Of a stretch of 57,086 nucleotides of DNA, positions 18,755 through 21,030 are shown piece after piece (the first letter of the stretch is position 1; each line of letters begins with the position of its first letter). Origin of the DNA: Chloroflexota bacterium (lineage in GTDB: Bacteria; Chloroflexota; Chloroflexia; Chloroflexales; Roseiflexaceae); NCBI GenBank assembly GCA_013388755.1, contig JACAEQ010000086.1, positions 1-57,086 of the forward strand, written 5' to 3'. Made by a program: the position numbers and the translations under genes. The notes beneath the pieces are model-generated. The model was not told the origin of the DNA and did no database searches. It was given only the letters and a program-made list of their open reading frames with translations.

Positions 18755-19706
18755 GGTAAACCAGCTGACTAAACGGTACGCTCAGGGCAACGTGCTTGCC
18801 AGAATTGTCATTACCGCTGTGGACAATATCAGCTTTGATATTAAACCGGCCGAAATCTTTACCCTGGCCGGTGAAAGCGGTTGTGGCAAGACCACGACGG
18901 CCAGGATGGTCCTGGGGTTTGAGGAAGCCACCTCCGGGACGATCCTCCATAACGGAAAGCCGCACACACGCAAGGAGAAGGTCTGGATCACCGAAGGCGT
19001 GCAAGCCATATTCCAGGACCCGTTCAGCACGTTCAACCCGCTGCGCACCGTCGATTCGTATTTCCACGAAACGGTGCAGAACTACCGGCTGGCCAGGAGA
19101 AAAGAAGAAGCGATAGCATTGATCGATCAAAAATTACGCCTGGTGGGCCTGACCTACCAGGAGTTTGCCGGCAAATACCCGAATGAGTTTTCCGGCGGGC
19201 AGTTACAGCGTATCTCGATCGCCCGGGCGCTGGTCACCGACCCCAGACTGATCATTGCTGATGAACCGGTTTCGATGGTCGACGCCTCCCTGCGTATGTC
19301 AATTGTCAATCTGTTCAAAAAGCTCAGGGATGAACTGGGGGTGAGTATTCTCTATATCACGCATGACCTGGCAACGGCGTATTATGTCAGTGATCGTATC
19401 GCTATCATGTTCCGCGGTAACATTGTTGAAATGGGACCGGTGGAACAGGTGTTGATGAACCCCAGGCATCCATACTCGCGGCTGCTGCGCGATTCCATTC
19501 CTCAGGCGGACCCCAGGCTACGCTGGCGCGATACCGTGACCCTGGCCGAACTGGAACAGGAGGAATATCTGCGCAAGGGATGTAAGTTTGCCGGGAGATG
19601 CCCGAAGGTGATGGAGATCTGCAAGCGCGATGTCCCCGCCGATATTGTCATCGACGATGTACTGGTCAAGTGCCATCTGTACAACGAATCAGGGGGTGGC
19701 TCGTAG
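18738..19706 (+). CDS. ABC transporter ATP-binding protein, DppF-type
   Basis: 322 residues from ATG 18738 (preceded by GGAGAAGG). Walker [10 protein letters not shown], signature FSGGQLQR, Walker B LIIADEPVSMVD and switch THDLA are all present. The C-terminal Cys-containing extension (CKFAGRCPKVMEICKRDVP, then a late Cys) is kept. A longer frame open to 18552 only reads through the preceding gene. Last gene of the LacI-controlled importer; a tRNA on the opposite strand follows 20 bases after its stop. Confidence 0.93.
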   Translation: MDRLLEVNQLTKRYAQGNVLARIVITAVDNISFDIKPAEIFTLAGESGCGKTTTARMVLGFEEATSGTILHNGKPHTRKEKVWITEGVQAIFQDPFSTFNPLRTVDSYFHETVQNYRLARRKEEAIALIDQKLRLVGLTYQEFAGKYPNEFSGGQLQRISIARALVTDPRLIIADEPVSMVDASLRMSIVNLFKKLRDELGVSILYITHDLATAYYVSDRIAIMFRGNIVEMGPVEQVLMNPRHPYSRLLRDSIPQADPRLRWRDTVTLAELEQEEYLRKGCKFAGRCPKVMEICKRDVPADIVIDDVLVKCHLYNESGGGS

Positions 19707-19726
19707 GCAGGTGTTTCGGTTGGAGG

Positions 19727-19823
19727 TGGCGCGAACGCGTGGGAGTCGAACCCACCGGCGAAGCTCGTCACCCCGCCCACTCGTTTTGAAGACGAGAACG
19801 GCCACCGGGCCGCATCCGTTCGC
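19727..19823 (-). tRNA. selC: tRNA-Sec (anticodon UCA), selenocysteine
   Basis: Read on the minus strand, this 97-nt gene folds as a selenocysteine tRNA. The acceptor begins GCGAACG and pairs with CGTTCGC. A long 6-bp D-stem (GCGGCC/GGCCGT) follows. The anticodon arm CTCGT-CTTCAAA-ACGAG has the UCA anticodon. The long variable arm GGCGGGG/CTTCGCC closes a six-base loop. The T-arm is GTGGG-TTCGACT-CCCAC, with a T-loop identical to E. coli selC. CCA is encoded after discriminator G. The eighth acceptor pair, paired in most bacterial tRNA-Sec, is an opposed G/G here. No selA, selB, selD or in-frame-UGA selenoprotein gene is seen in the window. Confidence 0.93.
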
Positions 19824-19829
19824 GGCGGC

Positions 19830-19858
19830 ATTGTAGCGTGCAGATGCACGGGTGTCAA
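19830..19858 (-). promoter_or_regulatory. Consensus sigma-70 promoter of tRNA-Sec
   Basis: On the minus strand, TTGACA (19858-19853), a 17-base spacer and TACAAT (19835-19830) precede the tRNA. Only six bases lie between the -10 and the mature 5' G at 19823, so the expected transcription start falls at or within a base or two of the tRNA's own first base. Confidence 0.85.
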
Positions 19859-19999
19859 CGAGCGAGCCGTTGCGGGTACGCCCTGCCACGGCATTCTGCA
19901 CATGCGCAAGGCGTGCTGTGGCGAAGGGCAGAATCATTGAACCATGGGCGTGCTGGGAGCGTGGGCGTCATGCGCGCAAGATGGGCACGATCCCGGCGA

Positions 20000-21030
20000 T
20001 CAACGCGACGTTGTTCCACCCGACTGATCCGGGGCGCTACGGCTGGCGAGCATTGCAAGAAACGTCTCAACGATCTGTGGGTCAAAGTGTGTACCGGCAA
20101 GTGAACTCAAATAGGCGATCGTCTGTTCTTCCGACCAGGCCGCGCGATATGGCCGGCTCGAACGCAGGGCATCCCAGACGTCAACGACCGCAAAGATCCG
20201 CGCTGCAAGCGGTATCTGGTCACCATGCAGGCCACGCGGGTAGCCACTGCCATCCCAGCGTTCATGATGCGCATAGGGAATAGCCAGTGCCGGCCGGAGG
20301 AACGGGATTGGTGCCAGCCAGCGAAACGCGTGAACCGGGTGCTCACGCATGATCGCCCATTCATCAACGCTGAGCGGACCAGGTTTGAGGAGAATATGGT
20401 CCGGAATGCCCATCTTGCCGATGTCGTGCAGCAAGGCGCCGCGCCGGATATGATCAAGCTCCTCGGCAGGAACCTGGAGACGCCGGGCAAGCTGCAGGGT
20501 GAGTTCGGTGACGCGCTCACTGTGGCCTTCCGTTGAGCATATCAAGGCTGGCCTCGTACCGATCAAGCATCATGGGCTGGATGTATGCCACCAGGCTCTG
20601 GCCCACCAGGCCTGCAGCATCGTCGACGTCGAGTAGCCTGCCGAGCGCCGGGTTCACCAGCAACAGGGTGCTCGCCGCGTTGACGATCGCGACGCCTTCC
20701 GGCGAAAGTTCGATCAGGCGCTGGAAACGCTCGCGCTCGGATAACAGGCGCCGGTAGCGGTTCAGGCGCATGATTGTGCGAACATGCGCCAGCAGTTCGG
20801 CACTGTCGCATGGTTTGCTGATAAATCCATCAGCACCAACGCTCAGCCCGCGAACACGTGACTCCTGGTCGTCAAGCGATGTGATCATGATGATCGGGAT
20901 CTCGCGCAACCGGGAATGTTCACGCAACCGCAGGCAGACTTCAAAGCCGTCGAGTTCGGGCATCAGTACATCAAATGGGTCAGCCTGCTCAAACCGGTGC
21001 CGCCGGAAATAGTGACGCCTGTCCCGATCC
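20000..21030 (-). pseudogene. Response regulator-PAS-HD-GYP protein, frameshifted and 5'-truncated
   Basis: Two frames make up one former gene. Codons from about 21030 to 20517 encode the second half of a REC domain (FDVLMPELDGFEVC with the phospho-Asp, IIMITS, KPCD) and a PAS segment (FQRLIELSPEGVAIVNAAS). The HD-GYP domain follows in another frame to 20000 (EGHSERVTELTLQLARRL, HDIGKMGIP, HHERWDGSGYP). The reading frame shifts by a net one base within about 20530-20560. The REC N-terminus is missing: the frame meets a stop at 21039-21041, inside a dispersed repeat, with no start codon in between. HD-GYP proteins degrade cyclic di-GMP; this copy is probably inactive unless the shift is a sequencing error. 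Confidence 0.8.

Follow-up and report, generated by a model that had tools for sequence, protein, structure and literature searches.

A selenocysteine tRNA gene of Chloroflexales with a conserved promoter placed for a predicted start at the mature 5' end

A stretch of 57,086 nucleotides from a Chloroflexota bacterium (the window; contig C74 of a 5.08-Mb genome in 145 contigs) carries on its minus strand a selenocysteine tRNA gene (tRNA-Sec, selC) with a sigma70-type promoter directly in front of it. Our reading, which the comparative data make probable, is that this is a functional, stand-alone selC and that selection places the promoter for a start at the first base of the mature tRNA (G1), or at most one nucleotide upstream, so that the transcript would have a mature, triphosphate 5' end and no need of RNase P. 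We see about an even chance that this extends across the order Chloroflexales and several other Chloroflexota families, i.e., that tRNA-Sec, and in some genera a few others such as tRNA-Lys-CTT, arises there without RNase P as a 5'-triphosphate transcript from G1. The features are as follows.

19853 to 19858, minus strand: -35 element TTGACA (sequence and scans; conserved in the order)
19830 to 19835, minus strand: -10 element TACAAT after a 17-bp spacer (scans; 54 of the order's 57 tRNA-Sec loci keep a distance of 6-7 bases)
19824 to 19829, minus strand: 6-nt discriminator GCCGCC with C at -1 (sequence; pyrimidine at -1 in 54 of 54 loci of the order)
19823, minus strand: predicted transcription start, G1 of the mature tRNA-Sec (deduced from where the promoter elements lie and from the conserved -1 pyrimidine and +1 G)
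19727 to 19823, minus strand: tRNA-Sec (selC), 97 nt with encoded CCA (ARAGORN, Rfam, fold)
19816, minus strand: G8, 5' member of the eighth acceptor position, an opposed G/G (fold, class-wide comparison)
19787 to 19789, minus strand: anticodon TCA, which reads UGA (ARAGORN, tRNA nt 35-37)
19738, minus strand: G86, 3' member of the eighth acceptor position (fold, class-wide comparison)

The tRNA-Sec gene and its genomic setting

The sequence and ARAGORN agree on a gene of 97 nt, encoded CCA included, running from 19823 to 19727. The Rfam covariance model RF01852 matches it at 71.5 bits (gathering threshold 47, E 1e-12), and the traits of that family are present: a UCA anticodon, G73, a 6-bp D stem with a 4-nt loop, and a long variable arm. 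This is a bona fide tRNA-Sec. The initial annotation had proposed the same identity from the length, anticodon and variable arm, and had named a failed covariance search as a possible refutation; the match above the gathering threshold settles that point in its favour.

An opposed G/G at the eighth acceptor position had also been noted, and G8 (19816) and G86 (19738) indeed form no pair in the minimum-free-energy fold. The acceptor and T stems have 8+5 length with 12 standard pairs rather than 13, which makes this tRNA-Sec a 12-pair variant of 8/5 length. Thirteen standard pairs are typical but not obligatory in bacterial 8/5 tRNA-Sec, and 12-pair forms have been published (PMC5330540). The G/G opposition is a lineage-wide trait: within Chloroflexales, the eighth position is G/G in 27 of 52 scored loci and C/G in 20, and loci of the class outside the order have G/G in 38 of 43 cases. 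It is found in most tRNA-Sec loci of the class, for instance among L021-L104. We considered the G/G as a cause of leaderlessness and rejected it, since it has no association with leader length; within the order, genes of either type, G/G or C-G, show the short promoter distance of 6-7 bases, and elsewhere the G/G type also comes with longer distances.

The immediate neighbours of tRNA-Sec are an oligopeptide ABC-transporter operon and, upstream, a broken response-regulator/HD gene that ends at 20000. Between 20000 and 20963 on the minus strand, response-regulator, PAS and HD-domain segments are spread over two overlapping frames and the receiver domain is truncated, so that this looks like a broken gene, either a natural pseudogene or an assembly error. 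None of selA, selB and selD was found in the 57-kb window, as the initial annotation had stated; absence of these genes from the whole genome would have spoken against its view of tRNA-Sec as a stand-alone marker of UGA decoding, and a genome search recovered all three on other contigs, each over its cut-off. selA is on C86 (556 bits), selB on C127 (335.8 bits; 359.5 bits for the translated SelB ORF), and selD on C97 (G000:C97:576-1505, L124; 372 bits). The selD frame contains one in-frame TGA, MHNRDEVRLTDLAGCAG-[TGA]-ASKMGPGAL, i.e., between AGCAG and ASK, which is the active-site position at which selenocysteine is known in SelD proteins. The selenophosphate synthetase is thus itself a predicted selenoprotein. 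Sec decoding looks intact in this genome even though no sel gene lies near tRNA-Sec and, given the presence of selA, selB and a selD with an in-frame TGA, the tRNA-Sec most likely serves as the active selC of an organism that decodes Sec.

Two side observations concern relatives. Five near-complete genomes of genus g4 in the organism's own family, f1 (G003, G009, G012, G015 and G017), have no strong tRNA-Sec match, and G009 and G017 have only weak matches of 51 bits, which suggests that the Sec trait was lost in part of the family. In six Chloroflexaceae loci (L053, L054, L060, L061, L062 and L086), where tRNA-Sec has no encoded CCA, TGCAATAGACTT or a near variant directly follows G73. A mobile element is disfavoured as its source, as the flanks stay similar from one of these relatives to the next and no other sampled locus has the motif; it looks to be where a conserved, convergently oriented neighbour ends.

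Promoter distance at tRNA-Sec and at other tRNA genes

TACAAT ends six bases before G1 (19823) and is separated from TTGACA by 17 bp, at the positions implied by the initial annotation (19858-19853 and 19835-19830). In the whole window this is the sole sigma70-type site with at least 11 of 12 consensus matches, and five mononucleotide shuffles yielded none; a local scan of 19600-20100 found one sigma70-type site against a shuffle mean of 0.1. The whole-window scan, together with conservation across the order, leads us to reject a chance match.

To assess conservation, we collected 100 tRNA-Sec genes of the class with their flanks, and scored the 57 loci of Chloroflexales (families f1-f4) for the gap, defined as the number of bases between the end of the -10 element and G1. 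Scoring was by a simple weighted consensus, which may misplace weak promoters, especially at low scores. A recognisable promoter is present at 54 of the 57 loci, and the gap is 6 in 16 of them and 7 in the remaining 38, with no other value. All 54 have a pyrimidine at -1 and a G at +1. The three loci without a promoter are L034, L105 and L116, the last of which looks degenerate. Shared ancestry was discounted in part with a de-replicated set of 39 loci whose 40 upstream bases are less than 75% identical, although these relatives are not independent. In this set, position -1 carries 1.11 bits and positions -2 to -6 carry 0.04-0.35 bit; the spacer columns from -27 to -15 hold at most 0.2 bit, and both hexamers stand out. 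Among strong promoters, a 17-bp spacer goes mostly with a gap of 7 (27 of 42 loci) and an 18-bp spacer with a gap of 6 (9 of 42), so that the distance from the -35 element to G1 is mostly constant.

A tRNA-Sec pattern of the order matches named genomes of Chloroflexus, Oscillochloris, Chloroploca, Viridilinea, Kouleothrix and Roseiflexaceae, and several loci of the organism's own family f1 recur under Roseiflexaceae and Kouleothrix names, which places the organism in Chloroflexales, on the side of Roseiflexaceae. The close promoter is found in Chloroflexus islandicus, Candidatus Chloroploca asiatica and Candidatus Viridilinea mediisalina, among others. In a wider sample of the phylum, the tRNA-Sec gap is 6-7 in f19, f52 and part of f10 and 5-6 in f7; in the majority of the remaining families the gap is wider or no promoter can be recognised.

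Other tRNA genes served as controls. In the organism's own genome, the median gap over the 34 other tRNAs whose promoter was scored is 12, and only one of them (Lys-CTT) is at 7 or less; their gaps cluster at 8-13, i.e., leaders of approximately 2-7 nt. Short leaders thus prevail in this organism, but the data reject the idea that its tRNAs are all leaderless to the same degree. A second genome assembled as one contig (G045, 5.26 Mb) has a median gap of 13.5 for other tRNAs, with 2 of 28 at 7 or less. For tRNA-Cys, 47 loci of the order have gaps of 9-33 and never 8. The tRNA-Lys gap varies from 6 to 48 (loci gathered with a generic tRNA-Lys query and re-identified by ARAGORN before use) and reaches 6-7 in genera g16 (Chloroflexus) and g4. 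The -10 element lies 6-7 nt from the mature 5' end of tRNA-Lys(CTT) at L218, L262, L263, L243, L248, L250 and L251, and at L133 of the organism's own genome; tRNA-Lys(CTT) is a possible second leaderless tRNA. In genome G188, of the distant family f19, the Sec gap is 7 and 21 further tRNAs whose promoters are strong lie at 9-30 (median 16), an independent replicate of the Sec-only pattern. The close promoter is Sec-biased rather than general. Because short leaders are common in the organism's own genome and tRNA-Lys(CTT) has gaps of 6-7 in two genera, Sec appears as the extreme of a trend and not as wholly unique.

Predicted start at G1 and the alternatives

With a 6-nt discriminator, a sigma70 promoter usually starts transcription at the seventh base after the -10 element, and a purine preceded by a pyrimidine is preferred. 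At a gap of 6, the seventh base is G1, which is then the predicted start. At a gap of 7, the -1 pyrimidine occupies the seventh position and G1 the eighth, so that G1 is again favoured; a start one base upstream, with a 1-nt leader, is possible in this case. Our best prediction from promoter geometry is a start at G1 with a leader of 0-1 nt. The earlier suggestion that transcription begins at or next to the first base of the tRNA gains support from the gap of 6-7, from the invariant bases at -1 and +1 in 54 of 54 loci, and from the apparent bias towards Sec. As a point on the other side, a pyrimidine at -1 also precedes 55 of 76 other tRNAs here and is common on RNase P substrates.

RNA polymerase would thus start at the mature G1 or at most one nucleotide before it, and the primary transcript would be made with its 5' end in the mature position, bearing a triphosphate, and would require no RNase P cleavage. 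An organism that lacks the enzyme is not supported as an explanation: an RNase P RNA core lies at G000:C37:39457-39557 (L290 1501-1601; 63.8 bits, E 8e-19), its score staying below the Rfam gathering cut-off of 100 with an alignment limited to model positions 111-207. The helices that flank this core diverge from the Rfam class A model. The genome very probably has the enzyme, on which the majority of its other tRNAs, having leaders, depend. For these two reasons, the arrangement, if it works as predicted, would be a bypass specific to certain tRNAs. The likely reason would be the long, 13-position acceptor-T helix, an abnormal RNase P substrate, and a start at G1 would guarantee the exact 5' end of tRNA-Sec. 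The acceptor stem of tRNA-Sec has 8 bp, and its precursor is cut by bacterial RNase P in an abnormal way (PMC11143913), as is also stated where PMC3874170 cites Burkard and Soell 1988. Avoidance of RNase P on account of this abnormal substrate is plausible.

The generally compact leaders of the organism's other tRNAs, the Lys-CTT gaps of 6-7 in some genera and the RNase P RNA core would all suit an ordinary, very short leader, in which most cells begin the transcript 1-3 nt ahead of G1 and leave the mature end to RNase P, as part of a compact tRNA promoter style of the phylum. However, the Sec gap is fixed at 6-7 in every one of the 54 loci, whereas Cys varies from 9 to 33 in the same order; the usual start at a gap of 6 is G1 itself, and the base before G1 is never a purine. 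We consider such a leader unlikely. An equally low probability attaches to a start at G1 that has no functional meaning, the placement being ancestral and kept by descent with no selection for skipping RNase P. The loci of the order do share ancestry, and promoter strength alone could be what is conserved, but spacer and discriminator bases have been randomised while the distance and the identity of -1 and +1 were kept, and spacer length mostly trades against the gap. The same position also recurs in the distant families f7, f19 and f52, and is Sec-specific in f19.

Local scans detected no intrinsic terminator downstream of tRNA-Sec and none between the gene remnant ending at 20000 and tRNA-Sec, so that read-through precursors with a leader may occur. 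That tRNA-Sec is expressed in this way, with normal 5' processing and a near promoter that is a chance match, is very improbable: the promoter is the only one of its quality in 57 kb, it is conserved in 54 of 57 relatives, and the upstream gene is a broken remnant. We favour a promoter that selection has placed for a start at G1, a prediction that is directly testable in cultured Chloroflexus and Herpetosiphon.

Comparison with known tRNAs

The tRNA-Sec described here and E. coli K-12 selC belong to the same 95-97-nt class and have in common the UCA anticodon, the long variable arm, the 6-bp D stem with its 4-nt loop, G73, and the GGTTCGACTCC T arm. They differ at the eighth acceptor pair, which is C-G in E. 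coli and G/G here, and in promoter distance: the E. coli -10 element lies 31 nt upstream, giving a leader of roughly 25 nt, versus a gap of 6 nt here. An acceptor stem of effectively 7 rather than 8 bp recalls the 7/5-fold bacterial tRNA-Sec of the Cloacimonetes type and others (PMC5330540). Those forms have a missing nucleotide or a bulge and 7 residues between the T stem and G73; here, by contrast, all 8 residues are kept and only the eighth opposition is non-Watson-Crick.

Maturation of tRNA 5' ends by RNase P is treated as nearly universal, and leaderless tRNAs have been described for an archaeon that lost the enzyme. Nanoarchaeum equitans has no RNase P, and all of its tRNAs are leaderless with a 5'-triphosphate (PMC10100707, PMC10941002). 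The likeness lies in promoters that let transcription begin with the first mature base (PMC10100707): the promoter here is placed in the same manner, with a gap of 6 and a conserved pyrimidine at -1 and G at +1. Unlike in N. equitans, the promoter is of the bacterial sigma70 type, an rnpB core is present (on C37), and most other tRNAs have leaders. A search of the open-access literature brought up no account of bacteria that have RNase P and yet conserve a leaderless tRNA, and nothing relevant on mapped bacterial leaderless tRNAs or on start-site maps of Chloroflexus or Chloroflexales. Such a tRNA, if real, would be a natural case of one substrate opting out; the long acceptor helix of tRNA-Sec would then seem to carry a cost, one that a suitably placed promoter can spare the cell.

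The selenocysteine tRNA of vertebrates has been reported to start at its first nucleotide and to retain its 5'-triphosphate, in contrast to the other tRNAs of the same cell. It has a 9/4 fold and is made by RNA polymerase III from an upstream promoter, a system unrelated to the one described here, so that the likeness is at most a convergence. An RNase P-free tRNA-Sec in bacteria that use RNase P would, if confirmed, be a tRNA-specific bypass that parallels the vertebrate case.
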